A stretch of 46,092 nt of DNA, taken from positions 1 through 46,092 of the forward strand of contig DAHVAR010000226.1 in NCBI GenBank assembly GCA_027314515.1, in the 5' to 3' direction. The translations under genes were made by a program, and so were the position numbers. This DNA comes from Actinomycetota bacterium. GTDB lineage: Bacteria; Actinomycetota; Actinomycetes; Streptosporangiales; Streptosporangiaceae. Shown here piece by piece: positions 10,868-46,092 of the stretch. Every line of letters begins with the position of its first letter. Within the stretch, counting starts at the first letter, position 1. The notes under the pieces were generated by a model that saw nothing but the letters and a program-made list of their open reading frames with translations, was not told the origin of the DNA and made no database searches.

Positions 10868-11683
10868 ATGCAGGGACGGCAGCGCTCCTGGCGCGACACG
10901 ACCGTGGCCAGGATCGCCACCCTGCCCCGCAAGCCGCCGATGATCGTCAGGGAGTCGGGGCTTACCGCGCATGCCCAGATCGAGGACTGGCTCGCGGACG
11001 CGATCGCGGTCGGTCTCCTGACCCCCGGTGACCGGCTGCCGACCGAGCACGACCTGGCCGCCTGGCTCGGGGTGAGCCGGATGACACTGCGGCACGCGCT
11101 CGGTGAACTGGCTCAGCGTGGCCTGGTGACAAGGACGGTGGGGCGCGGCGGCGGCACATTCGTCGCCGAGCCCAAGCTCGAGCAGGACCTGACCACGCTG
11201 GCGGGCTTCTCCGAGCAGCTGCGCCGGCACGGCAAGGTCGCCGGAGCCAGGGTGCTGGCCGCGACCCGGATCCCGGCGAGCTCGTCTGCCGCGGCCGCAC
11301 TCAAGCTCGCCGAAGGCGATCCGGTGCATGACGTCCGGCGCATCAGGTTTGCCGACGGGCGCCCGATCGTGATCGAGCATTCGCAGTTCCCCGCCGGCCT
11401 GTTTCCCGACCTGCTGGACTGCCGGCTCGACGGCTCGCTGTACGACCTGCTGGCCGAGAACTACGGGCAGCGGCCGCACCGAGCCAGGGAGTCGCTGGAG
11501 CCGGTGATCGCCGGTGTCCGCGAAGCCGAGGCGCTCGACATCGCCGAGGGCGCACCGCTCATGCTGGTGGAACGCACCGCGTACTCGCTGGCAGGACAGC
11601 CGCTTGAGTACGCCCGCGACCTGTTCCGCGGCGACCGGACCAGGGTCGTGGTCTGGACATCCGAGCTTGGCGGCGAGCTCTAG
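10868..11683 (+). CDS. GntR-family (HutC subfamily) transcriptional regulator
   Basis: A 271-aa repressor-type protein. The winged HTH lies at about residues 33-100 (GDRLPTEHDLAAWLGVSRMT, then LRHALGELAQRGLV). It is followed by a UTRA ligand-binding domain (about 110-260) with SSAAAALKLAEGDPVHDVRR and ending RDLFRGDRTRVVVW. UTRA marks the HutC subfamily. The ATG at 10868 is used; a shorter start at 10940 is possible. A matching HutC-type operator occurs 1.9 kb upstream between the kinase and permease genes, so it probably regulates those divergent units in response to a small-molecule effector. Confidence 0.9.
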   Translation: MQGRQRSWRDTTVARIATLPRKPPMIVRESGLTAHAQIEDWLADAIAVGLLTPGDRLPTEHDLAAWLGVSRMTLRHALGELAQRGLVTRTVGRGGGTFVAEPKLEQDLTTLAGFSEQLRRHGKVAGARVLAATRIPASSSAAAALKLAEGDPVHDVRRIRFADGRPIVIEHSQFPAGLFPDLLDCRLDGSLYDLLAENYGQRPHRARESLEPVIAGVREAEALDIAEGAPLMLVERTAYSLAGQPLEYARDLFRGDRTRVVVWTSELGGEL

Positions 11684-34130: not shown

Positions 34131-34252
34131 TGCTGCGTGGCCTGGACCCGGCTCCCTGGCCGACTCGTGCAGACGATCAAGCTGCTTGTCAGGTCACGAT
34201 AGAATTACCGCACGGCGATGGAGCTCGTCGAGAACCGCCCTCGTGGCTGATG

Positions 34253-34288
34253 GCTCCTGTCCAACCGCCCGCGCGGCGAGACAGGAGC
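34253..34288 (+). promoter_or_regulatory. Inverted repeat covering the ribosome site of the first MutS-like gene
   Basis: Perfect 9-bp arms GCTCCTGTC (34253-34261) and GACAGGAGC (34280-34288), with an 18-base loop containing a further CGCC/GGCG pairing. The only Shine-Dalgarno-like AGGAG (34283-34287) before the ATG at 34299 sits inside the 3' arm, so in RNA it would be hidden. It could act as a translational switch, an upstream terminator or a DNA operator. Confidence 0.45.
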
Positions 34289-34298
34289 GTGGCGTGCC

Positions 34299-35846
34299 AT
34301 GACCGGCCCTGCGAGGTTCGCGAGCCTGCTCGGCGAGGAACCTGCCGAGCCGGGGAGCAGTGACGCGCTCGATGACGAGGTTCTGTCCGACCTGAACTTC
34401 GATCAGGTCATCGACAGCGTGGCCGGTGACCGGGATGAGCGGGAGCTCATCAGGCGGCTGCTCAGGCAGCCGGCCAGGGACCTGGAAACCGTGAGCTTCC
34501 GGCATGAGGTCTTCCGCGACCTGGAAGAACCCGCCTTGCTCGAGGCCGCTAGGCAGTTCACCGGGCAGCTGCGCCAGGTACGGGCACACCTGTCGCAGCT
34601 CGGCAAGATGCACTCCGTTCACCAGCGAGAAGGCTGGTTCCTCGACGCCGCGATCAGCTACTGTGACGCCGTCAGGAAGCTGGCGGACGTCCTGGCCGAG
34701 CGGCCGGTGGCAGCACGCGGGCTCGTGGCCTTGCGTGACTACCTCTTCGACTACGCCGGCTCACCCGGCTTCGCCCGGCTGGCCGCGGAGGCAGCCGACC
34801 GCAAGAACGAGCTTGCCGAGATTACCTACCAGATCCGGATCAAGGGTTTGCGGGTGGAAGTCAGCCGATACAACGGCGAGCCCGACTACAGCGCGGAGAT
34901 CGAGAAGACCTTCGAGCGCTTCCAGCAGGGAGCGGTGAAGAACTACCTGGTGCCGTACCGCACGTGGCCCGGCATGAACCACGTCAGCGCACAGATCGCC
35001 GAGCTCGTCGCCCGCCTGTTCGCCGACGAGTTCGCCGCACTCGCCGGATTCTGCCGGCGGCACCAGCAGTTCATGGACCCGGCGGTCAGCCAGGCTCACC
35101 GCGAACTGCAGTTCTACCTGGCCTACCTGGACTACATCAGGCCGCTGCGGTCGGCCGGGCTGACGTTCTGCTACCCGGAGCTCACGACGCGACCGAAGGA
35201 TATCTATGCGCGCGAGACCTTCGACCTCGCTCTCGCCGCCAGGCTCACGGCACGCGGCCAGCCAGTGGTCACCAACGAGTTCCAGCTGACCGGGCCGGAA
35301 CGAGTCATCGTGGTGTCCGGCCCTAATCAGGGCGGCAAGACGACGTTCGCGCGAACCTTCGGCCAGCTCCACCACCTGGCCCGCACCGGCTGCCCGGTGC
35401 CGGGGCAGGCGGCCCGGCTGCATGTGTACGACCAGATCTTCACCCACTTCGAGCGCCAGGAAGACATCGCCGACCTGGCAGGGAAACTGGAACAGGATCT
35501 GCTGCGCATCCAGAAGGTGCTTCAGGCGGCCACGCCGGACAGCATCGTGATCATGAACGAGATCTTCACCTCCACCACCGTCAGCGATGCGTACTTCCTC
35601 GGGCAGCGAGTGCTGGCCCGCGTCATCGGGCTTGACCTGCTGTGCGTCTACGTCACCTTCATCGACGAACTCGCCGCTCTCGGGCCGTCCGTCGTCAGCA
35701 TGGCGAGCACCATCGTCCCCGGTAACGCCGCCGAGCGGACCTACCAGGTGGTGCGCAAGCCCGCCGACGGCCTTGCCTACGCGCTGGCCATCGCGCGCAA
35801 GCACGGCGTGACCTACGACCAGCTCAAGGGACGGCTGGCGCCATGA
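34299..35846 (+). CDS. MutS-core ATPase, first of a pair
   Basis: A 515-aa protein lacking the MutS mismatch-recognition and connector domains. Residues about 30-290 are helical, corresponding to MutS core/lever and clamp helices, with RVEVSRYNGEPDYSAEIEKT in the middle. The C-terminal ABC-type ATPase (about 300-515) has Walker A SGPNQGGKTTFART (Lys347), signature-like ERQEDIADLAGKLEQDLLRI and Walker B IVIMNEIFTSTTVSDAYFLG, where the usual Asp is Asn. The stop overlaps the second MutS-like gene (ATGA), arguing for a heterodimer. It is not a canonical mismatch-repair MutS. Its biological role is unknown. Confidence 0.82.
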   Translation: MTGPARFASLLGEEPAEPGSSDALDDEVLSDLNFDQVIDSVAGDRDERELIRRLLRQPARDLETVSFRHEVFRDLEEPALLEAARQFTGQLRQVRAHLSQLGKMHSVHQREGWFLDAAISYCDAVRKLADVLAERPVAARGLVALRDYLFDYAGSPGFARLAAEAADRKNELAEITYQIRIKGLRVEVSRYNGEPDYSAEIEKTFERFQQGAVKNYLVPYRTWPGMNHVSAQIAELVARLFADEFAALAGFCRRHQQFMDPAVSQAHRELQFYLAYLDYIRPLRSAGLTFCYPELTTRPKDIYARETFDLALAARLTARGQPVVTNEFQLTGPERVIVVSGPNQGGKTTFARTFGQLHHLARTGCPVPGQAARLHVYDQIFTHFERQEDIADLAGKLEQDLLRIQKVLQAATPDSIVIMNEIFTSTTVSDAYFLGQRVLARVIGLDLLCVYVTFIDELAALGPSVVSMASTIVPGNAAERTYQVVRKPADGLAYALAIARKHGVTYDQLKGRLAP

Positions 35847-37387
35847 AAGCCCACCTGCTGTGCGCAGACCAGGACTTCGACTTCGCCGCCGACCTGCCCC
35901 CCAGCAGCGCCGACTTGATCGCCGACCTCGAACTGGACACCGTGCTGACCGCGATGGCCGCGGGCGACAAGTTCCTCTACCAGATCTCGGCGAAGGTACT
36001 GCTGGCGAGCGTTACGGACCAGGCCGCGATTCGCTACCGGCAGAGTGTCCTGGCCGACTGCATCGCGGTGCCGGATGTCGTCCGCCTGATGTACGACATC
36101 GCGGTGGCAGCTCTGGCGGAGAAGCGCCGGATCTGGGGATTCCTGTCGTCGCAGTACCCGGCGTCGATCCTGTCGTCAGCCGTCAACCAGCTTGAGGTCC
36201 TGATCGTCCGGCTTAGGGACCTGCGCCGGCTCGCCGATGACCACGTCGCGAAGTTCCGGTCCGAAGGGCTGGTCACTTTGCTGCACACGCTCCAGCGCGA
36301 GCTCGATGACGACTATTTCGAGGTTCTCAGCGGGCACCTCGGGCAGCTGCGGTTCGCCGGCGGCGAGCTGATCAGCGCGCAACTTGACCGGGACAACAGC
36401 GGGATCAACTTCGTCCTGCGGGCGGGCAGCGCCAAGCGCGGCTGGAAGGAACGGGTCCGGATCGAGCCGCGCTCGGTTTACTCCTTCGCCATCTCGCCGC
36501 GCGACGAGGCCGGCGGTCAGGCCCTGCAGGACCTGGCCAACCGCGGTCTCAACCTCGTCGCCAACGCGGCCGCCCAGGCGGCCGACCACGTGTCCAGCTT
36601 CTTCACCATGCTCCAGGCTGAGCTCGCGTTCTATGTCGGCTGCCTGAACCTGCACGATCAGCTCACCGCGCGAGGACAGCCGCTCACCTTCCCCGATCCG
36701 CTGAGCTGGACCTCGCCCCAGTTCACCTGCGAGGACCTGCGCGACACCAGCCTCAGCCTGCGTACCGAGCGGGTGGTCGGCAACAACGTGACCGCCGACG
36801 GCAAGGCGCTGGTGATCATTACCGGCGCCAACTCCGGCGGCAAGTCAACATTTCTGCGCAGTGTCGGGCTCGCCCAGCTCATGATGCAGTGCGGCATGTT
36901 CGTGACGGCCGGGGCCCTGCGGGCAAGTGTCTGCCGGCAGCTGTTCACGCACTTCATCCGCGAGGAAGACGCCGAGATGGTCAGCGGCCGCCTGGACGAG
37001 GAACTCAGCAGGATGAGCAGGATTGCCGGCCAGATCGGCCCGCACTGCCTGATCCTCTTCAACGAATCGTTCGCAGCGACCAACGAGCGCGAAGGATCGG
37101 AGATCGGCCGTCAGGTCGTGCGCGCGCTCCTGGAAGCGGACATCAGGGTTTTCTTCGTCTCCCACCAATTCGACTTCGCCGACGGTTTCGGCCGTGAGCT
37201 CCCGGACCTGACTCTCTTCCTCCGTGCCCCGCGCGAGCCCGACGGCACGCGCACCTTCAAACTGGTCGCCGCGCAGCCACTGCCGACCAGCTACGGACAG
37301 GACATTTACCACCGTATCGGCGGGTGGCCCGACCAGCCGCCCGCGACCGCACCACCCGAAGGCGATTGCGGCGCGTCGGCCGAGTGA
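35843..37387 (+). CDS. MutS-core ATPase, second of a pair
   Basis: A 514-aa paralogue of the upstream gene, with a 4-bp overlap (ATGA). Helical core to about residue 290. The ATPase domain has Walker A TGANSGGKSTFLRSVG (Lys334), the MutS-like AQLMMQCGMFVTAGALRASV, signature region REEDAEMVSGRLDEELSRMS, Walker B LILFNESFAATNEREGSEIG and a switch motif VFFVSHQFDFAD. The Walker B acidic pair is NE rather than DE, as in the partner. There is no mismatch-recognition domain, nuclease or membrane helix. The Pro/Gly-rich C-terminus is short. Two unequal MutS cores suggest an asymmetric ATPase clamp acting on DNA or another polymer. Confidence 0.82.
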   Translation: MKAHLLCADQDFDFAADLPPSSADLIADLELDTVLTAMAAGDKFLYQISAKVLLASVTDQAAIRYRQSVLADCIAVPDVVRLMYDIAVAALAEKRRIWGFLSSQYPASILSSAVNQLEVLIVRLRDLRRLADDHVAKFRSEGLVTLLHTLQRELDDDYFEVLSGHLGQLRFAGGELISAQLDRDNSGINFVLRAGSAKRGWKERVRIEPRSVYSFAISPRDEAGGQALQDLANRGLNLVANAAAQAADHVSSFFTMLQAELAFYVGCLNLHDQLTARGQPLTFPDPLSWTSPQFTCEDLRDTSLSLRTERVVGNNVTADGKALVIITGANSGGKSTFLRSVGLAQLMMQCGMFVTAGALRASVCRQLFTHFIREEDAEMVSGRLDEELSRMSRIAGQIGPHCLILFNESFAATNEREGSEIGRQVVRALLEADIRVFFVSHQFDFADGFGRELPDLTLFLRAPREPDGTRTFKLVAAQPLPTSYGQDIYHRIGGWPDQPPATAPPEGDCGASAE

Positions 37388-38126: not shown

Positions 38127-40217
38127 TCAGCGGAATCCGGTGACCACGGCGAGCAAGGCGATCAGCGCGACCAGCATGTACGCCAGGTAGGCGTCAAGCC
38201 GGCCGGACTGAAGCCGCTGAGCCAGCCGCACCAGCATCGCGAATGGCCGCCGGAACGGCCGGTAAAGGTACTGCTCGGTGACCTCGACGACGTCGGAGCT
38301 GTACTCGATGTGCGGAGCGGCCGGAACGGCGGCTGCACCGTCATCCTCGTTCCCGGTCCCGAGCCTGGTGACCCCAGCCCTGGTGTGCAAGACCCCGGCG
38401 AGGACGCGGCGAGCCGGGTTGGCGAACCCGAACGCGGTGTAGCTGTCGTGCCCGGACACCCCGGCCGTTGCCGAGCGCCAGGCGGGCACGCGGCGCACTC
38501 GCAGCAGCCGCGAGCCGGACACCAGCCAGGTCGCCGCCGCGACCACGAGGAACAAGGCCGGCATGACGACCCACAGCCAGGACGGCGACAAGATCGAGAA
38601 GGCGGCGAAGACAGGCTGCACAACCCACGGCGACTTCAGCGCCGCGGTCACGGCCGACGTCGGCAGCACCGGCGCGAGGCCGGCCCCGATCAGCCTGATC
38701 TCCAGCGGCGTCACCGCCGCCAGCGCCAGGCAGGCTACCGCCAGCGCGGTGATGCCTGCTCGCCCGGCCAGGCCGGCGTCGGCGGCGACGGCGCGTTGCT
38801 CCCCCGCGGGGCGGCGCCCGAGCACCACCAGCCCGATGATGCGCACGAACGTGACGCCAGCGAAGCCGGCTGTCAGGGCGACGGCCGCGCCGGTCACCGC
38901 GAGCACCAGCCGGTCGGCCAGGCCCGGCACCCTGAACTGCTGCATGAGCGCCTCGAGCAGGAACCATTCCGAGACGAACCCCGCCGTCGGCGGCAGGCCC
39001 GCCAGGGTCAGGCTGCCGATCGCAAGCCCGGTGCTCGCCCACGGCGTACGGCGAACCGATCCGCGCATGCCGTCAAGGTCGTCGGAACCACCGGGCGACT
39101 GGATGCTGCTGCTGGCCGTGAACAACAGCGACTTGGCCACGGCATGCGCAATGACCTGCAGCGTAGCGGCCAGCAAACCGACTGCCTGCAGTGCGCGGCT
39201 GCCGGTGGCGGCGCCGACCAGCGCTACCCCGAAGCCAGCGAGAATCAGGCCGGCGTTCTCCACGCTGGAATAGGCGATGACCCGCTGCAGGCTCCCCTGG
39301 ACCGCGGCGTGCGCGATGCCGAGCAGCGCTGTCAGGCTAGCCAGCAGCAGCAGGATGTCGATCACGGCGGCGGGCGGCGGGCCGAGTACGGCCAGCGTGC
39401 GCCACATTCCGTAGAAGCCGACGTTCACGCCGACCCCGGCCATGATCGCCCGGGCGGGGCCGGGCGCCGCAGCGTAGCCGCGTGGCAGCCAGACCTGGAA
39501 GGGCACCAGGCCCACCTTCACCGCGAAGCCGGCCAGCAGCAGCACGCATGCGGTCGCTCGCAGCGGTCCGGCAGGCACATGGGCCAGGCCGGCCAGGGTC
39601 AGCGACCCGGATCGGGTCACCAGCAGCAGCAGGCCAGCCAGCAAGCTGGCACCGCTGAGCCGTCCGAACGCGAGGGTGATCAATGCCGCCCAGCGCCGGC
39701 TGGCGAAGCTCCGCTCGTATCCGGCGAGCAGCCAGAACGCGAGCGTCAGCGACTCCCAGCCGAACAGCAGGGTGACGGCATCCTGCGCGGTGAGCACGAC
39801 GGCGACCGCGCCGAGCGCGAGAGCGTAGCCGGCCCCGAGGCCGCGCCTGCCGGGGCCAGCGGGGCCAGCGGGGCCAGCCGCCCAGGAGGCGAACCCGAGC
39901 GAGACCGCGGCAGCCGCACCGAATGCGATGACAAGGAACAAGCCGGACAGCCGGTCAGCCGCCAGCCCGGACACTGCGGAGAAGAGGTGAGGTCCGCCGA
40001 CCGCGACGCTGCCGAGGACGGCAGCGGACCGGATCGCCACCGCCCGGCCGGCCACCGCTCCGGCGCCGGCCACCAGCAGGCATGCCGAGCCGGCCGTGCC
40101 GAGCAGGTACGGCACCCGGCGCCAGGCCTGCCGCCGGGTCCCGGCCAGCAAGTCCGTGCCCGCTGCCAGGGCCAGCAGGATCAGCCCCGCGGCCAGCACG
40201 CCGCCGAACGCGGTCAC
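38127..40217 (-). CDS. Hyf/Hyc-like proton-translocating membrane subunit (HyfB-type)
   Basis: About 696 aa from the GTG at 40217, chosen because it overlaps the preceding gene's stop (GTGA); the frame is open to 40364 but that part is non-membrane and unlike the family. It has some 14-16 hydrophobic segments and a proton-antiporter (MrpA/NuoL-like) core: LLFGWESLTLAFWLLAGYE, VGLVPFQVWLPRGYAAAPGP and YSSVENAGLILAGFG. The TM core includes Glu and Lys residues expected for proton transfer. A 9-bp unit repeated three times (39852-39878) encodes Gly-Pro-Ala. It is the last gene of the operon. The role is an ion-pumping arm of a complex-I-like enzyme. Confidence 0.87.
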   Translation of the reverse strand: MTAFGGVLAAGLILLALAAGTDLLAGTRRQAWRRVPYLLGTAGSACLLVAGAGAVAGRAVAIRSAAVLGSVAVGGPHLFSAVSGLAADRLSGLFLVIAFGAAAAVSLGFASWAAGPAGPAGPGRRGLGAGYALALGAVAVVLTAQDAVTLLFGWESLTLAFWLLAGYERSFASRRWAALITLAFGRLSGASLLAGLLLLVTRSGSLTLAGLAHVPAGPLRATACVLLLAGFAVKVGLVPFQVWLPRGYAAAPGPARAIMAGVGVNVGFYGMWRTLAVLGPPPAAVIDILLLLASLTALLGIAHAAVQGSLQRVIAYSSVENAGLILAGFGVALVGAATGSRALQAVGLLAATLQVIAHAVAKSLLFTASSSIQSPGGSDDLDGMRGSVRRTPWASTGLAIGSLTLAGLPPTAGFVSEWFLLEALMQQFRVPGLADRLVLAVTGAAVALTAGFAGVTFVRIIGLVVLGRRPAGEQRAVAADAGLAGRAGITALAVACLALAAVTPLEIRLIGAGLAPVLPTSAVTAALKSPWVVQPVFAAFSILSPSWLWVVMPALFLVVAAATWLVSGSRLLRVRRVPAWRSATAGVSGHDSYTAFGFANPARRVLAGVLHTRAGVTRLGTGNEDDGAAAVPAAPHIEYSSDVVEVTEQYLYRPFRRPFAMLVRLAQRLQSGRLDAYLAYMLVALIALLAVVTGFR

Positions 40218-41059
40218 CGTCGCCCGCCAGCCGTCCGCTTGCCCGCCGGGGCTTGCGACGGGCCCGCCGCGGCTTGCGAGCCGGGCGCCGCCGGCAGCCT
40301 GCCCAGCGCTAGGAGCAGGGCGGACATGATGGCAAACGGGCTGGGCGGAGAGCCGGGCAGCCATACCTCGACCGGCACGAGGTCGCCGACGCCGCCGCTG
40401 GTGGCATAGGACGGACTGATGAGGCCGCCGCCGACGGCGTCAGAGCCGACGGCGACGACGACCTTCGGATCCGGCATCGCTTCGTAGGTCTCCCGCAGCG
40501 GGCCGGCCATCCCGTGCGCGCCCGCTCCGGTCACCAGCAGGACGTCGGCGTGCCGCGGGCTGGCGGTGAAGAACATGCCGAGCCGGTGGATGTCGTAGAC
40601 CGGGTTCAGCAGCGCCAGGATCTCCCACTCCTCGCTGCCGTCCGACCCGGCGTCGACGTGCCGCAAGTGCACTGACCGGCGCAGCGCCCTGGTCCTGGCC
40701 CGCAGCGCGGCAGCCACCGCCGCCAGCGACTGCGGGTTCTCCTCCGGCGGGACGACCAGGCCAGCGCGGGTCAGCGTCGCGCCCCCGGGCCCGGAGGACC
40801 AGCCGAACACATCCGGGCGCAGCTGCACGCACCGGCCGCACAGAATGCACCGGCCCTGGTCGACTCGCGCCTGCCCGCGCTGATCGACGCTGATCGCGCC
40901 GGCCGGGCAAAGGCCGGCCACCGCCGGCTGACCGGACGTCAGGACGTCCGGGCCGCCGAGCACCGTCGCCGGCCCGCGCGTGCTCGCCGCGTACTCGTCC
41001 GGCCGGGCAGGCCACTTCGTGGTGAGGACGCCGTCACGCAATCCGCGCAGTACCCACAT
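40214..41059 (-). CDS. Hydrogenase small-subunit homologue (HycG/NuoB-like) fused to ferredoxin, N2 cysteines lost
   Basis: A 281-aa protein. The N-terminal ferredoxin-like part holds one complete [4Fe-4S] site: Cys51 (GLCP) with Cys71, Cys74 and Cys77 (CILCGRC); the other half-site is gone (Arg81 where the eighth Cys should be). The C-terminal NuoB/HycG fold is well kept (HLRHVDAG, NPVYDIHRLGMFFTASPRHA, TYEAMPDPKVVVAVG). All four N2-type ligands are replaced: AGSCNGCE reads AGSDGSEE (Cys positions now Asp140 and Glu143), GDCA reads GSDA (Asp207) and PGCPP reads PGSPP (Ser237). The ancestral electron path to a catalytic site is therefore broken. It starts 21 bases after the large-subunit stop. 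Confidence 0.85.
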   Translation of the reverse strand: MWVLRGLRDGVLTTKWPARPDEYAASTRGPATVLGGPDVLTSGQPAVAGLCPAGAISVDQRGQARVDQGRCILCGRCVQLRPDVFGWSSGPGGATLTRAGLVVPPEENPQSLAAVAAALRARTRALRRSVHLRHVDAGSDGSEEWEILALLNPVYDIHRLGMFFTASPRHADVLLVTGAGAHGMAGPLRETYEAMPDPKVVVAVGSDAVGGGLISPSYATSGGVGDLVPVEVWLPGSPPSPFAIMSALLLALGRLPAAPGSQAAAGPSQAPAGKRTAGGRR

Positions 41060-41080
41060 CTAACTTCTCACCTGACCCCG

Positions 41081-42613
41081 TTACCTGGCGGCACCCGCGA
41101 CGGACAGCCCGAAGCTCGCCTCGATGAACGGGAAGTCCGTCAGGATGTCCCCGGCGAACACCTCGTGCATCAGCACCAGGTTGTGGAACGAAGCGGACCG
41201 CGACCGGCACCGGGTGATCCGCCCCGACTCGATCCGCACGTCGTAGAGCACCTCTCCCTGGGGCGCCTCGGCCCAGCTCACTGCCCTGCCGTCGGCGCCC
41301 GTGAAGTCGGCGCCCGTGAAGTCGGCGCCCGTGAAGTCGGCGCCCGTGCGGTCGGCGTGCAGTGGCCCCGAGTCAGCCTCGGACAGCTCGTCGGCTGCCT
41401 GCCGGAGCAGGTGAAACGCGCCGGCGATCTCGTCGACGCGGACCTCGAGCCGCGCCAGCGCGTCGCCTTCGTCCCGGGAGCTGACGGTCGTGCGAAGCGA
41501 TCCGTAGGCGGCATAAGGCCGCGACTGCCGTGCGTCGTCGACGATGCCGGACGCGCGGCCGACCGGACCGAGCGCGCCGTGCTCCGCGGCCCTCGCGGGC
41601 GGGAACGGGCCTGTTCGGCGGAGCCGGTCCAGGAAGGACGCGGTTCCCATCAGCAGCTTGAGGTCTGCGGAGAGCTGTCGTTCTAGCTGCCGGAGCGCGG
41701 CCAGGATCCCGGCCGGGTCCAGCTGCGGCGCGGCCGTGACCCCGCCGGGCGTGACCACGCCCCGGCCGAACCGGCTGCCGCAGATCTGGCCGGTCAGTCG
41801 CAGCACCTGTTCCTTGTGCCAGCCGAACCGGGCGGTCGCCACGGCCAGCCCGGCTCCGTCGGCGAGGCGCACGACGACATCCAGGTGGCAGGCCAGCCTC
41901 TCCAGCTCGGCGTGCAGCGTCCGGATCAGGGCCGCCCGCCACGGCACCGGCGTCCCGGAGATCTGCTCGACCGCCTGGCAGAACGCGATCGCGTGCGCCA
42001 CCGACGCGACGCCCTCGGTTCGTTCCGCGAGCAGCACCGCGTCGGCCGGCCGCATCCCCGCGTACCGTGCTTCGATTCCGCGGTGCTTGTAGAACAGCCG
42101 CATGTTCAGGTGCGCGATGTCCTCACCGGGCGTTTCGACCAGGTACTCGATGGACTCGGTCACTCCGGACCTGACCGGGCCGTGCGGGATCGTGAACAGG
42201 CCAGGCCCTACCGCGTGGCTCGGCAGCAGCCGCGGATCCGGATCGATCCGGCCAGGCGCGCCATCACCGCCCGGCAGCGGCAGGCCCGGCCCGCTGGCCG
42301 GCCGGAGCAGCGGCTCCAGCCGCGGATGCCCCTCCGGCACCACGCCGAACATGTCATGGATCTCGCGCTCGTACCAGAACGCGCTGCCGGCCACCGGCGT
42401 GACGGCCGGGTAGCTTGCCTGGCCGGCCGGCAGGATGACATCGACGGTGGTGATACCGTCCGGCCCGGCAAGCTGCGCGGTGATCAGCAGCCCCGCCTCG
42501 TGCACGGTGCCGAACAGGTCAGCCAGCCGGCCGCCGGCCTCGATGTGCCCGGTCACCCGGTCGCGCAGGCTGGTGACGCTCCCGGCGAGCTCGTACTCAG
42601 CGGCCGCGGTCAC
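41081..42613 (-). CDS. Hydrogenase large-subunit homologue (HycE/HyfG/NuoCD-like) without Ni-Fe ligands
   Basis: A 510-aa protein from the GTG at 42613, overlapping the upstream stop by GTGA. The N-terminal NuoC-like domain (about 1-130, ASYPAVTPVAGSAFWYEREI then HDMFGVVPEGHP) is followed by a NuoD-like domain (FTIPHGPVRSGVTESIEYLV, FYKHRGIEARYAGM). The L1 motif, normally R-C-G-x-C, reads ERTEGVASVAHA; no C-terminal CxxC exists, the end being RSRSASFHNLVLMHEV. No [NiFe] site is possible. Four 15-bp repeats at 41291-41350 insert TGADF units. This matches Ehr-type (hydrogenase-related) complexes, as in the mycobacterial hyc-like locus. Confidence 0.87.
   Translation of the reverse strand: MTAAAEYELAGSVTSLRDRVTGHIEAGGRLADLFGTVHEAGLLITAQLAGPDGITTVDVILPAGQASYPAVTPVAGSAFWYEREIHDMFGVVPEGHPRLEPLLRPASGPGLPLPGGDGAPGRIDPDPRLLPSHAVGPGLFTIPHGPVRSGVTESIEYLVETPGEDIAHLNMRLFYKHRGIEARYAGMRPADAVLLAERTEGVASVAHAIAFCQAVEQISGTPVPWRAALIRTLHAELERLACHLDVVVRLADGAGLAVATARFGWHKEQVLRLTGQICGSRFGRGVVTPGGVTAAPQLDPAGILAALRQLERQLSADLKLLMGTASFLDRLRRTGPFPPARAAEHGALGPVGRASGIVDDARQSRPYAAYGSLRTTVSSRDEGDALARLEVRVDEIAGAFHLLRQAADELSEADSGPLHADRTGADFTGADFTGADFTGADGRAVSWAEAPQGEVLYDVRIESGRITRCRSRSASFHNLVLMHEVFAGDILTDFPFIEASFGLSVAGAAR
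41291..41350. repeat. Four tandem 15-bp units inside the large-subunit gene
   Basis: GTCGGCGCCCGTGAA at 41291, 41306 and 41321, and a fourth copy ending GCG at 41336-41350. On the coding strand they give Thr-Gly-Ala-Asp-Phe repeated in frame, an addition between conserved NuoD-like blocks. Confidence 0.95.
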
Positions 42614-44211
42614 GACGCACCGCCGCCGAGCAGGGTGATCGCCCGGGCGAAGAGCTCGTCGAGTACGGCGGGCGGGTGCAGTCCGAGCCACAGCAGCGCG
42701 AGCGTTCCCGCCGCGACCGGTACCACCATCCAGGCACTCGGCTCGCCGCGGGCAGGCCCTGGCGCCGTAACGCCCGTTACCCTGGTGATCTGCGGAGCCG
42801 CACTGGCCGGATCCGCCGCGGGGGCGCCTGCCACCGCCGCCGCATGCGCGGGCACGAGCGTGCGCTCGGGGTGTGCTTGCGGCCGGGACAGCGACGGCCG
42901 CGACAGCGGCAGCATCAGCATCCGGGTGACCGAGCCAGCCAGCCCGGCGAACGCGATCGTGACCGCGATGATCAGCACCGCGGCGGCCGCGTAACTGCCC
43001 GAGCGCAGACCGCCGGCCACGATCTCGAACTCGCTGCGGAACAGCCCGAACGGCGGCATCGCGCCGAGCGCGAACACCGCCAGCAGGAAGAGCGGCCCGC
43101 TGGCCGGCAGCAGGTCCAGGCCGCCGCGGATCGCCATGATCTGCTTGGTGCCCAGCTTGCGGACCAGCGCGCCCGCGCCCATGAACGCATTGCCCTTGGC
43201 TGCCGCGTGCCCCAGCACGTGCAGCAGCACGCCGGCCAGCGCGGCCGGGGCTCCGAAGCTGACCCCGACGGCAAGGATGCCCATGTGCTCGACGCTCGAG
43301 TAGGCCAGCAGCCGTTTGACGTCCCGCTGCCCGAACAGGTACAGCATGGACAGCACCAGCGACGCCACCCCGAACACGAGCAGCACGTTGCGCGGGAACG
43401 CCGGTCCGAGTGCGACCTGCGTTACCTGGTAGAAGCGGAGTATGGCGTAGAAGCTGACCGCCAGCAGCGAGCCGGACAGCAGCGCGGACACCGGCGTCGG
43501 CGCCTCAGAGTGCGCGTCCGGCAGCCAGGTGTGCACCGGCACGAGGCCCATCTTGGTGCCGAAGCCGAGTACCGCGAGGACGAACATCAGCCGGACGGCG
43601 GTGTGCGGCAGCCGGCCAGCGACCGACAGCAGCTGGGTGAAGCCGAGGTCGTAGGACTGGCCAAGGACGTGCGCGCCCGCGTAGTAGGCGAAGATCGTCG
43701 CGAGCAGCGCCAGCCCTAGCCCCGTCGAGGCCAGCAGCACGTACTTCCAGGCGGCTTCGGCAGCGCCGTCGGTGTCCTCGATCGCCACCAGCAGCGCCGA
43801 CACGATCGTGGTCACCTCGATAGCGACCCAGAGCAGCGCGAGGTTACTGGCCATCGGTGCGGCCAGCATGGCCCAGGCGAACAGGTTGAGCCCGGCCCAC
43901 AGCAGCCGCGTGCGCCTGCCCGGCGGGTGGCCAGCGCCGTCGCCGGACAGATAGCCGATCGAGTAGACCGCCACCGCCGCGTAGAGGAATCCGGTGGCCA
44001 GCATGAACACGGCGCTCAGCGCGTCGACACGCAGCACGTGCAGGTAGCTGACGTCGTGCCGGGCGGCGGCCGGCACCAGCACCAGGACTGCCGCGAAGCT
44101 CGCGGTGCCGCTCAGCGCGGTGACGACCCGGCCGACCGCGACCGGGGAGCACAAGCAGATCAGCGCAGCTGCCAGCGGCAGCGCGAGCAGGAGGAGCAGG
44201 ACAGCGGGCAC
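42610..44211 (-). CDS. HyfF/HycQ-like proton-translocating membrane subunit
   Basis: A 533-aa NuoN/NuoL-like membrane protein with about 14 hydrophobic segments. Core signatures are LLWVAIEVTTIVSALLVAIE (with the conserved TM5 Glu), GTKMGLVPVHTWLPDAHSEA, then PTPVSALLSG, LLAYSSVEHMGIL and HVLGHAAAKGNAFMGAGALV. A Pro/Ala-rich loop of about 60 aa lies before the last helix. The GTG start is 2 bases after the preceding stop, and the end overlaps the large-subunit start (GTGA). It supplies a second antiporter-like channel of the complex. Confidence 0.88.
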   Translation of the reverse strand: MPAVLLLLLALPLAAALICLCSPVAVGRVVTALSGTASFAAVLVLVPAAARHDVSYLHVLRVDALSAVFMLATGFLYAAVAVYSIGYLSGDGAGHPPGRRTRLLWAGLNLFAWAMLAAPMASNLALLWVAIEVTTIVSALLVAIEDTDGAAEAAWKYVLLASTGLGLALLATIFAYYAGAHVLGQSYDLGFTQLLSVAGRLPHTAVRLMFVLAVLGFGTKMGLVPVHTWLPDAHSEAPTPVSALLSGSLLAVSFYAILRFYQVTQVALGPAFPRNVLLVFGVASLVLSMLYLFGQRDVKRLLAYSSVEHMGILAVGVSFGAPAALAGVLLHVLGHAAAKGNAFMGAGALVRKLGTKQIMAIRGGLDLLPASGPLFLLAVFALGAMPPFGLFRSEFEIVAGGLRSGSYAAAAVLIIAVTIAFAGLAGSVTRMLMLPLSRPSLSRPQAHPERTLVPAHAAAVAGAPAADPASAAPQITRVTGVTAPGPARGEPSAWMVVPVAAGTLALLWLGLHPPAVLDELFARAITLLGGGAS

Positions 44212-44213
44212 GG

Positions 44214-44969
44214 CTACCCCTTCAGGCTCGTCAGCTCGGCGGTGGACAGCGAGTCGGCGCGGCCGTGATGCACCCGGATCAGCAATCCGAATACGACCGC
44301 CACGACGAGCAGGTCGAACAGGAACGCGATCTCCAGGATCAGCGGCAGGCCGGCCGCGACGACGAGCGCGGTGAGCGAGACGCCGTTCTCCAGCGACAGG
44401 AAGCCGATCGCCTGGGAGATCACGTCCCGGCGCACGATCATGAGGACGAAGGCGACCAGGATGACCGCGACCGAGATCGACAGGGCCGTGGCAGGCAGGA
44501 CCGGGCTGCGCAGGCCGAGCGCGGCCGCCGTGAAGAAGCCGAACGCGGCAACGACGATGGCGATCAGCACCGCGCTCGCCACGCTCAGCGCATGGCTGCC
44601 GGCGATGTCGCTCCAGCGCGGGTCACCGCCGATCGCGCCGATGCCGCGCAGCATCCGGCGCAGCACGACCGGCACGATCACCACCTTGAGCGCGAACGAC
44701 AGCGCGGCGAGCGCGTACACGTCGGGCAGGTGCCGGGTGGCCGCGACCACGATGCACAGCACGGACAGCAGCCCTGACTGGACCGCGTACAGGCGGACCT
44801 GGTCGCGCAGCAGAGCCTGGCGGAACATGCCGAACTCGGCCAGCAGGACCCCGACCGCGATCACGCTCGCGCCGCCTGCCAGCGCGCTCGGCGCGGCCAC
44901 GGTTGAAGCCAGCCCGGTTGAAGCCAGCACGGTTGAAGCCAGCACGGGGGCCGCCACGATCCCGGACAT
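44214..44969 (-). CDS. HyfE/HycP-like membrane subunit
   Basis: A 251-aa membrane protein from the ATG at 44969, which overlaps the upstream stop (ATGA); the longer open frame upstream lies antiparallel to good coding sequence and was rejected. About seven hydrophobic helices, with a NuoK-like end: VISQAIGFLSLENGVSLTAL, EIAFLFDLLVVAVVFGLLIR. An N-terminal stretch contains three 15-bp tandem units (44901-44945) giving LAST(V/G) repeats. This subunit joins the antiporter modules to the NuoH-like subunit in Hyf and Ehr complexes. Confidence 0.87.
   Translation of the reverse strand: MSGIVAAPVLASTVLASTGLASTVAAPSALAGGASVIAVGVLLAEFGMFRQALLRDQVRLYAVQSGLLSVLCIVVAATRHLPDVYALAALSFALKVVIVPVVLRRMLRGIGAIGGDPRWSDIAGSHALSVASAVLIAIVVAAFGFFTAAALGLRSPVLPATALSISVAVILVAFVLMIVRRDVISQAIGFLSLENGVSLTALVVAAGLPLILEIAFLFDLLVVAVVFGLLIRVHHGRADSLSTAELTSLKG
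44901..44945. repeat. Three tandem 15-bp units in the HyfE-like gene
   Basis: GGTTGAAGCCAGC(C/A)C at 44901-44915, 44916-44930 and 44931-44945. In frame on the coding strand, near the N-terminus, encoding Ala-Ser-Thr-(Val/Gly)-Leu units. Confidence 0.95.
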
Positions 44970-45931
44970 CAGCCACCGCCCAGGTAGAGGGTGAACACGC
45001 CGAGCACGGCGAGCAGGAACGCGCCCGCGGCGAACTCGGTGATCTTGAACAGCCGCAGCTTGCCGAACGAGTTGTCGATGACCGCCACCACGACGCCGAG
45101 CAGCGCCGCCTTGCCGATCAGCGCGGCCATCGCGAGCAGCACGGAAACCAGGCTCGGTGTGGCGGCAAGTCCCCAGGGCGCGACGAAGACGTTGATCAGG
45201 ATCGTGAACAGGATCAGCTGCTTCATCGCCGACCCCCACTTCAGCAGCGCGAAGTAGGGTCCGGAGTGCTCGAACGGCCGGGCTTCCTCGATCATCCCGA
45301 ATTCGTTCGTGCCGGAGTGCGTCTCCACCGGGATGCGCCCGGTCTCGTACAAGATCACCATGAACAGCGCCGCGGCGGCCAGCAGGTGCGCCGGCCTGAT
45401 GATCTGGCCGGCGCTCGAGCGCACGGTGGCGGCCAGCGCGTAGGGCAGGTCGGTGCCGGTGACCAGCGCCACGGTGAACACCACGAACAGCACGACCGGC
45501 TCGGTGATGGCGCCGAAGGTCTTCGCCCGGCTGGCGCCGAGCTGGGCGTACGGGCTGCCGGAGTCCAGTGCCGCGACCGCGACCACGAAACTCGCCAGCG
45601 ACAGGATGAACCCGCCGCCGAGGATGTCGCCCATGTACCCGAGCGGCAGCCCGAACGTGGTCAGCACCGGGATCAGCAGCGGCACGGTGAGATAGCAGGT
45701 GATCGCCGCTACCGGCGCGGCCAGGAAAACCCAGCTCGACCCGATCGGTGCCAGCGCTTCCTTGCGGAACAGCTTGCCGAGGTCGTAGTAAGGCTGCAGG
45801 ATCCGCGGACCGGTCCGGCCCTGCAGCCGCGCCTCGACACGACTGATCACGCCCGACACCCCGGGTGCCGCGGCAGCGATGGTGACAACCTGCAACAGCT
45901 GGACGAGGAGTATGGGCAGCGCCGGGCTCAC
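44969..45931 (-). CDS. HyfC/HycD-like (NuoH-type) membrane subunit
   Basis: A 320-aa protein with eight or so hydrophobic helices. NuoH-family loops are visible: VEARLQGRTGPRILQPYYDL (quinone-chamber loop 1), YAQLGASRAKTFGAITEPVV, PVETHSGTNEFGMIEEARPF and SGPYFALLKWGSAMKQL. The charged Glu residues of loop 5 are kept. The GTG start overlaps the TGA of a 31-codon frame. As the proximal gene for the membrane anchor, it couples the hydrophilic NuoB/NuoCD-like arm to the ion channels. Confidence 0.92.
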   Translation of the reverse strand: MSPALPILLVQLLQVVTIAAAAPGVSGVISRVEARLQGRTGPRILQPYYDLGKLFRKEALAPIGSSWVFLAAPVAAITCYLTVPLLIPVLTTFGLPLGYMGDILGGGFILSLASFVVAVAALDSGSPYAQLGASRAKTFGAITEPVVLFVVFTVALVTGTDLPYALAATVRSSAGQIIRPAHLLAAAALFMVILYETGRIPVETHSGTNEFGMIEEARPFEHSGPYFALLKWGSAMKQLILFTILINVFVAPWGLAATPSLVSVLLAMAALIGKAALLGVVVAVIDNSFGKLRLFKITEFAAGAFLLAVLGVFTLYLGGG

Positions 45932-46023
45932 GGATTTGCTCTTCTCGGGCGAGACCCTGCGCTGCTGGCCTGGGGTCCGCCCGGACTATCTTTGCCCGGC
46001 GGTGCCGTCACTTCCGCGCTCAC
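45928..46023 (-). CDS. Small leader-type ORF coupled to the Ehr operon
   Basis: A 31-aa frame from the GTG at 46023, with GGAGGAGAC (46036-46028) just upstream, the strongest ribosome site in the operon. It encodes MSAEVTAPPGKDSPGG and a Pro/Arg/Ser-rich tail, and its TGA overlaps the GTG of the NuoH-like gene (GTGA). It has no recognisable domain. It may be a leader peptide that delivers ribosomes to the operon or a small protein; alternatively the operon's first gene has a different start. Confidence 0.45.
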   Translation of the reverse strand: MSAEVTAPPGKDSPGGPQASSAGSRPRRANP

Positions 46024-46092
46024 TGATGTCTCCTCCCACGCCGGGATCCCCGGCAGCAGTGGTAGAGGCCATCAGCGAGACATTTCGCGGTT

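Follow-up and report, generated by a model that had tools for sequence, protein, structure and literature searches.

A Six-Gene Ehr Operon at the End of the Contig

The DNA analysed here, called the window throughout, is the whole 46,092-nucleotide (nt) stretch of contig DAHVAR010000226.1 from genome assembly GCA_027314515.1, an actinomycete of the family Streptosporangiaceae. Its minus-strand end is occupied by a six-gene operon in the order ehrC, ehrE, ehrF, ehrL, ehrS, ehrB (names assigned in this analysis), which encodes an energy-converting hydrogenase-related (Ehr) complex, a type reportedly described by Marreiros et al. in 2013. The genes are listed below with the length of each product in amino acids (aa) and a profile match.

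44969..45931, minus strand: EhrC, NuoH/HycD/HyfC-like membrane subunit, 320 aa (Pfam NADHdh, E = 2e-32)
44214..44969, minus strand: EhrE, HyfE-like membrane subunit, 251 aa (NCBIfam hydrogenase 4 membrane subunit, E = 1.1e-16)
42610..44211, minus strand: EhrF, HyfF/NuoM-like antiporter-type subunit, 533 aa (Pfam Proton_antipo_M, E = 6.6e-48)
41081..42613, minus strand: EhrL, HycE/NuoCD-like large subunit, 510 aa (Pfam Complex1_49kDa, E = 1.2e-33)
40214..41059, minus strand: EhrS, ferredoxin domain fused to a HycG/NuoB-like small subunit, 281 aa (Pfam Oxidored_q6, E = 3.5e-19)
38127..40217, minus strand: EhrB, HyfB/HycC/NuoL-like antiporter-type subunit, 696 aa (Pfam Proton_antipo_M, E = 1.6e-44)

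The ATG of ehrE overlaps the stop codon of ehrC. The products supply the core of NuoB-, NuoC/D-, NuoI-, NuoH- and antiporter-like subunits expected of an Ehr complex. The six genes include none for an NADH module, a formate dehydrogenase, HyfA, HyfD or FdhF.

Loss of the N2 and Ni-Fe Ligands in EhrS and EhrL

EhrS aligned with E. coli HycG (7z0s_G, E = 7.4e-29), P. furiosus MbhJ and the NuoB/PSST chains. In the alignment to HycG, MbhJ and NuoB, the four columns of the cysteine ligands of the N2 (proximal) cluster were filled in EhrS by D140, E143, D207 and S237, encoded as follows.

40640..40642, minus strand: GAC, D140, N2 cysteine position
40631..40633, minus strand: GAG, E143, N2 cysteine position
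40439..40441, minus strand: GAC, D207, N2 cysteine position
40349..40351, minus strand: TCT, S237, N2 cysteine position, giving PGSPP for PGCPP

A previous sequence-only reading of this DNA had placed the same residues at these positions, and both the alignment and the codons confirmed it. Ligand motifs elsewhere in EhrS were ruled out, the only cysteines of the protein being C51, C71, C74 and C77. They form the one ferredoxin-type cluster that the same reading had recognized, and in comparison with E. coli NuoI, HycF and HyfH they correspond to the final motif I cysteine and the first three motif II cysteines. We take them to be the N6b set and the missing cysteines to be the N6a set, which is likewise absent from the ferredoxins compared of two related lineages, B and f39, described below. 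The AlphaFold2 model of EhrS (mean predicted local distance difference test score 77.1, predicted template modelling (TM) score 0.60) matched HycG best in Foldseek (7z0s_G, E = 2.3e-15), and MbhJ was matched with a target TM score of 0.85. The model suggests that the fold of the hydrophilic arm is kept, although the sites that would hand electrons on to Ni-Fe or quinone are missing.

Losses were also evident in the large subunit. Residues 198-203 of EhrL read RTEGVA where RVCGIC is expected, and no C-terminal CxxC was found, in agreement with the prior claim that both Ni-Fe motifs were missing. The columns of the quinone-site His and Tyr of T. thermophilus Nqo4 (His38 and Tyr87) hold Thr and Gly in EhrL. 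The complex thus has the Ehr hallmark of a large subunit without [NiFe]-centre ligands. It has neither the RCGxC and CxxC motifs and proximal [4Fe-4S] cluster of group 4 [NiFe] hydrogenases and formate hydrogenlyases, nor the N2 cluster and quinone-site His/Tyr of respiratory complex I.

Conservation of the Cysteine-Less Form

Complexes like that of the window, with a fused, cysteine-less small subunit, were designated A type; the second Ehr complex of the same genome was designated B type. Small subunits were counted as distinct when they differed in score or ligand string, and three rows cut by contig ends were excluded. All eight positions could be read in 58 distinct A-type small subunits, and not one of these had a cysteine at any N2 position, which answers for actinobacteria the question, raised with the original claim, of what the ligand columns hold. 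The replacements followed the pattern D-[E/D]-D-S in 49 of the 58; the other states were DADS, DVDS, DDDN, DEDA, DDDA, DEES, NDDA (Mycobacterium branderi) and DERS (L109). All four ferredoxin cysteines were kept in 57 of 58, the exception being L103. In the large-subunit alignment, the first cysteine of RCGxC was Glu in 58 of 58 A-type proteins, and no CxxC occurred in the A-type C-termini shown. The ratio of nonsynonymous to synonymous substitution rates (dN/dS) was 0.21-0.25 in nine of ten pairs (dS 0.68-0.92) and 0.43 in the closest pair, the window and L042 (dS 0.096). These values suggest that the cysteine-less small subunits are under purifying selection. In L109 (Streptacidiphilus), the large and small subunits look frameshifted.

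The fused cysteine-less protein was present in 13 of the 60 related genomes searched. A scan of species genomes returned 61 A loci in Actinomycetota, a set that favours cysteine-less forms because one of the two peptide patterns used contained PGSPP. Their hosts include Amycolatopsis, Streptantibioticus, Micromonospora, Actinocatenispora, Microlunatus, Flexivirga, Streptacidiphilus, Mycobacterium sp. 141 and many metagenome genomes; confinement to the window's genus was thereby ruled out. In an even sample of the phylum, with six candidates scored per genome, an A-type score was reached in 4 of 396 genomes, the window's own included. A quick tree of 59 large-subunit rows, with support from the Shimodaira–Hasegawa-like approximate likelihood ratio test only, united all 31 A rows in one clade (100), which answers the question, put by the sequence-only reading, whether the cysteine-less form is a clade. 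This tree, along with the subunit set and the missing Ni-Fe ligands, supports the assignment to the Ehr type made in the sequence-only reading.

Graded Loss of Redox Sites and the Second Ehr Complex

In the same tree, A, B, the f39 loci and L126/L130 formed a 44-row clade (98), outside which fell the other Ehr complexes (C type, L127/L128) and formate hydrogenlyase-like rows. Redox sites are lost to differing degrees within this clade: the N6a set and the Ni-Fe ligands are gone from A, B and f39, and N2 is fully lost in A and changed in two other lineages. The N2 positions read C-C-P-S in the f39 loci L122-L125 and C-C-C-N in L130. We do not count the f39 loss of N2 as proven, because cysteines stand two residues on either side of the third N2 position and could serve as ligands. 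Outside the fluoride-linked clade, two Ehr loci with no aptamer before them (L129, 8945-9505, minus strand; L131, 8883-9440, plus strand) had T-C-D-D at the N2 ligand positions. A further complex in genome G006 (L056, 3350-5302, minus strand) has a large subunit with RACAAC and CYAC and may keep a [NiFe]-type metal site.

The B-type operon of the window's genome lies on contig C192. Its genes are ordered as in A and encode the ferredoxin separately; the four N2 cysteines are all present, and the Ni-Fe cysteines are missing. B was found in 7 of the 60 relatives, each time together with A (the sequence of five of these seven B loci was inspected), and the two share one contig in G001, G008, G051, L075 and L103. 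Since no B was seen in 6 of the 13 genomes with A, some of these genomes being incomplete, and G474 had B with no A found, neither complex seems strictly to need the other.

A tblastn search of plasmids with the large subunit gave 190 records, headed by the A-type complex of M. branderi and, after it, by rhizobial complexes with about 34% identity. In L150 and L151, the two rhizobial records inspected, the small subunit has all four cysteines, and no RF01734 site was found at the cut-off.

Ion-Pathway Residues of the Membrane Arm

The view that the NuoH-like and antiporter-like subunits look intact was upheld, as most known ion-pathway residues were kept. E132, K220, H309, H335 and E394 of EhrF correspond to E144, K234, H322, H348 and E407 of NuoM. 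EhrB has E155, K234, H358, K362 and E417 at the positions of NuoL E144, K229, H338, K342 and K399; the last column is Glu in the A type, as in Hyf/Hyc. R135, E144, E203, E210, E221 and K274 of EhrC match NuoH R148, E157, D213, E220, E228 and K274, with Glu in place of D213. Across the A type, the equivalents of NuoM E144/K234/H322/H348/E407 and NuoL E144/K229/H338/K342 were kept in 48-50 of 49-50 proteins, and those of NuoH R148, E157, E220, E228 and K274 in nearly every one; the columns of NuoM K265 and of NuoH E216, E218, E241 and D295 have changed. Judged by these residues, the membrane arm looks functional.

Fluoride Riboswitches at the Operon Starts

Fluoride riboswitch sequences were found at two places in the window, and a possible leader open reading frame (ORF) lies between one of them and ehrC.

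46056..46092, minus strand: probable fluoride riboswitch aptamer, 3' half, cut by the window/contig end; its 3' end lies 125 nt before the ehrC start
45928..46023, minus strand: possible leader ORF of 31 codons, between riboswitch and ehrC, its stop overlapping the ehrC start (direct reading)
34205..34266, plus strand: fluoride riboswitch aptamer, complete, before a MutS-like gene pair (RF01734, 46.8 bits, cut-off 34, E = 5.8e-10)

Scored with the home-made model R2, the truncated aptamer reached 31.0 bits (E = 1.1e-6). The aptamer is position-locked before ehrC in other A loci; a complete one lies 122-124 nt before ehrC in L041, L044, L045 and L117, matching the 125 nt of the window. By visual inspection, L041 and L070 have leader ORFs resembling that of the window.

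A strict two-part aptamer pattern was searched for up to 700 nt upstream of the operon starts. It matched 37 of the 45 A operon starts having upstream DNA, or 35 of 43 once two pairs sharing upstream sequence were dropped; with matches over the Rfam cut-off admitted as well, the count rose to 38 of 43. The five remaining operons were L077, L096 and L106, with Rfam scores below the cut-off (33.6, 31.5 and 20.7 bits), L075, in which both aptamer halves were seen by eye, and L110, in which the 3' half alone was seen. The pattern was also present in 7 of 9 B operons and 4 of 6 other operons of the fluoride-linked clade, and in none of ten C-type, other Ehr or hydrogenase operons. Its background in the remaining loci was 0.008 matches per 700 nt, many of these being riboswitches of other genes. 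L132, L134 and L126 lacked the pattern and had model matches of 28.1, 34.7 and 28.6 bits just before ehrC, and the aptamers of L130 (45.4 and 39.6 bits) lay at least 1.7 kb upstream.

In the window's genome, RF01734 exceeded its cut-off at two sites, before the MutS-like pair and before the Usp-B operon of the second Ehr complex. A third site, of 30.9 bits, lies directly before the B-type ehrC, and a fourth match, of 14.6 bits, is noise. The search of this genome gave no RF01734 site at the pair of CrcB (FluC) genes on contig C277. RF01734 was found in 30 of 37 A-carrying genomes versus 4 of 14 named control genomes, a control unmatched for phylum in a search that scored 104 of several hundred candidates per genome. 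Each of three B-type operons (L040, L051, L057) has two aptamers, of which one stands roughly 20 nt upstream of ehrC and the other in front of a Usp gene or some other gene. From these leaders, the operon apparently belongs to a predicted fluoride-riboswitch regulon.

Neighbouring Genes

The complete riboswitch of the window precedes a tandem pair of MutS-like genes, which converges on the Ehr operon.

34299..35846, plus strand: MutS-like ATPase 1, 515 aa, with MutS domain V as the only domain found (Pfam MutS_V, E = 1.3e-17)
35843..37387, plus strand: MutS-like ATPase 2, 514 aa, in the same sequence cluster as ATPase 1

Clustering of 65 gene sets from the A and B loci, with Pfam identification of one member per cluster, gave MutS-like proteins (18), DUF190 (15), Usp (11), dynamin-like GTPases (11), CrcB (8), enolase (8), MFS transporters (6) and NUDIX proteins (6). 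The window itself holds the MutS pair only. At the locus of one dynamin-like GTPase (L102, 11662-13434, plus strand), a riboswitch-like site of 48.0 bits (model R1) occupies 11410-11470 before the gene. The M. branderi operon, annotated as NADH-quinone oxidoreductase, hydrogenase and ferredoxin genes, is accompanied by enolase, DUF190, MFS, NUDIX and Usp genes, and an RF01734 site (40.9 bits) precedes its NUDIX-ehrC unit. Adjoining this operon on the plasmid, a 53.6-bit riboswitch (L149, 3576-3636, minus strand) precedes PE/PPE/WXG100 genes of type VII secretion. The CLC protein of the window's genome shows none of the CLC-F signatures.

Proposed Function and Its Rivals

With moderate confidence, we propose that the complex is a fluoride-induced, complex-I-like transporter of protons or cations rather than a formate hydrogenlyase. 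Hydrogen fluoride (HF) entering the cell acidifies the cytoplasm, and Na+/H+ antiporters are the commonest class under fluoride riboswitches after the exporters, according to the relevant passages of a 2024 review (PMC11139923); isolated antiporter modules of complex I conduct protons (PMC11496545). A role in pH and ion balance would fit these three observations. From sequence, we infer induction by fluoride, transport, its ion and direction, and the lack of a redox drive. Fluoride would enter as HF, bringing protons and fluoride into the cytoplasm and lowering the proton-motive force, and the riboswitch before ehrC would turn on the six-gene operon. EhrB and EhrF, joined by EhrC and EhrE, would then move protons and/or cations and restore pH and ion balance, much as the Na+/H+ antiporters are thought to act in the same regulon. 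The HycE/HycG-like arm may stay as a scaffold or gate, with the remaining [4Fe-4S] cluster probably serving structure or redox sensing, and a conserved acidic site would now stand where N2 was. As a tentative elaboration, which we hold to be rather improbable, the site D-[E/D]-D-S might hold a proton or divalent metal, possibly together with fluoride, and so gate the membrane arm; the complex would then have abandoned electron transfer and would move protons or cations under the control of a ligand or of pH. The suggestion made from the sequence alone, that the machine is driven by another signal or acts as a pure transporter, fits the proposed function and is too narrow, having missed the fluoride-riboswitch regulon. 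The riboswitches, the graded loss of redox sites and the cysteine-bearing second Ehr complex in the genome all go beyond it.

Several observations weigh against the proposed transporter. The B complex is a fluoride-linked sister of A yet keeps N2, and position 140 is Asn, not Asp, in M. branderi. One A-type large subunit, L108, has a cysteine at the second position of RCGxC. Conservation of the ferredoxin cysteines in nearly every A-type protein would be odd for a machine without redox chemistry. Transport itself may be altered, as the NuoM K265 column holds A251 in EhrF and the equivalents of NuoH E216, E218, E241 and D295 are changed in EhrC. As to the riboswitches, the aptamer before the window's own ehrC scored 17.9 bits with RF01734 (E = 0.014, model positions 29-64), under the cut-off because it is truncated. 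The two-part pattern was written after 21 leaders had been read, and hence is partly fitted. The Rfam cut-off alone was reached within 700 nt before ehrC in at least 19 of the 36 A loci checked, a lower bound because the genome search scored part of its candidates and part of its rows were counted.

The conserved cluster also bears on the earlier statement that electrons have no route through the complex. The loss of N2 and of the Ni-Fe ligands stands, but the N6b-type cluster speaks for a remaining role, redox or structural. The complex might still be redox-driven: an outside donor would reduce this cluster, and electrons passing to an unknown acceptor near the old N2/Ni-Fe cavity would drive pumping. 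Retention of C51, C71, C74 and C77, of the whole hydrophilic arm and of its fold-level likeness to HycG and MbhJ speaks for this possibility, which we nevertheless consider unlikely, given that the complex has lost N2, the Ni-Fe site and the quinone-site His/Tyr and that the six genes supply neither an NADH module nor a formate dehydrogenase. To judge from complex I structures, N6b probably also lies too far from the old active site for one hop.

Still less probable is a single working unit of A and B, in which the cysteine-less A would be the non-redox partner of the cysteine-bearing B in a mixed dimer or through shared subunits. All seven B genomes among the 60 relatives also carry A, and the two operons can share a contig; against this stand the A genomes in which no B was seen, some of them incomplete, and G474, with B and no A found. 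We are similarly doubtful that the complex is a fluoride exporter, or one that couples HF/F- to cations. Such a role would suit its riboswitch and neighbours, which belong to fluoride resistance, but the genome already has the CrcB (FluC) pair for that task, the subunits belong to cation/proton families, and no fluoride-binding feature was found.

An ordinary formate hydrogenlyase or [NiFe] hydrogenase induced by fluoride is hardly credible: sequence kinship with HycE/HyfG/HycG and the gene name used under this riboswitch in passages of PMC2864571 and PMC11139923 speak for it, but the missing Ni-Fe and proximal-cluster ligands refute it for the window's complex unless a different metal site exists. 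Sequencing error or gene decay, which a draft assembly of 280 contigs and the apparent frameshift in L109 might suggest, is just as implausible and is refuted by conservation, with 58 of 58 homologues in agreement, an open frame and low dN/dS.

Meaning of the Findings

In complex I, electron transfer at N2/quinone is linked to the movement of ions at a distance of 100-200 Å, by a mechanism that is debated. A conserved natural relative that has the ion machinery but not N2, Ni-Fe or the quinone residues normally found makes it possible to test directly how the membrane arm behaves when this chemistry is absent. The crcB motif has been linked to "formate hydrogen lyase" and mutS genes since 2010 (Weinberg et al., in a passage of PMC2864571), and the corresponding passage of the 2024 review PMC11139923 reads the riboswitch-linked formate hydrogen lyase as formate oxidation. 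In the open literature searched, which most subscription journals lie outside, we found no paper linking the fluoride riboswitch to Ehr complexes or to the loss of N2. Also absent from the print searched was any statement that these complexes lack Ni-Fe and, in the A lineage, N2 as well. The genes of the clade studied here are not formate hydrogenlyases and implicate pH/ion homeostasis in fluoride resistance. This suggests that the "formate hydrogenlyase" long tied to fluoride may be an ion transporter acting against fluoride stress, a testable answer to the puzzle, posed in 2010, of why such genes sit under a fluoride riboswitch.

Comparison with Known Systems

The window's complex shares with Ehr complexes the group-4-hydrogenase-like subunits, the antiporter-type membrane subunits and the absence of Ni-Fe ligands, the last being part of the Ehr definition as quoted in a passage of PMC6349859. 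Unlike known Ehr complexes, it also lacks the N2/proximal ligands, has a one-cluster ferredoxin fused to the small subunit and is apparently preceded by a fluoride riboswitch. The fold and the subunits HyfB, C, E, F, G and H/I are those of E. coli Hyc/Hyf, and 7z0s_G and 7z0s_E were the best PDB matches; unlike Hyc/Hyf, the complex has no RCGxC, CxxC or proximal cluster, and its ferredoxin carries one cluster versus two. Respiratory complex I has a comparable NuoB, C, D, H and L/M-like core, of whose central Lys/Glu/His residues the window's complex keeps most, but in the window N2 and the NADH module are missing and the quinone-site His and Tyr are replaced. The B-type Ehr complex (G000:C192) is alike in gene order, in the loss of the Ni-Fe ligands and the N6a set and in its fluoride riboswitches, and differs in its four N2 cysteines and in having the ferredoxin as a separate gene. 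Finally, the window resembles the crcB-motif genes described in the excerpted text of PMC2864571, where a fluoride aptamer likewise stands before hydrogenase-like and mutS genes; unlike the present analysis, that text gives no account of missing cofactor ligands.

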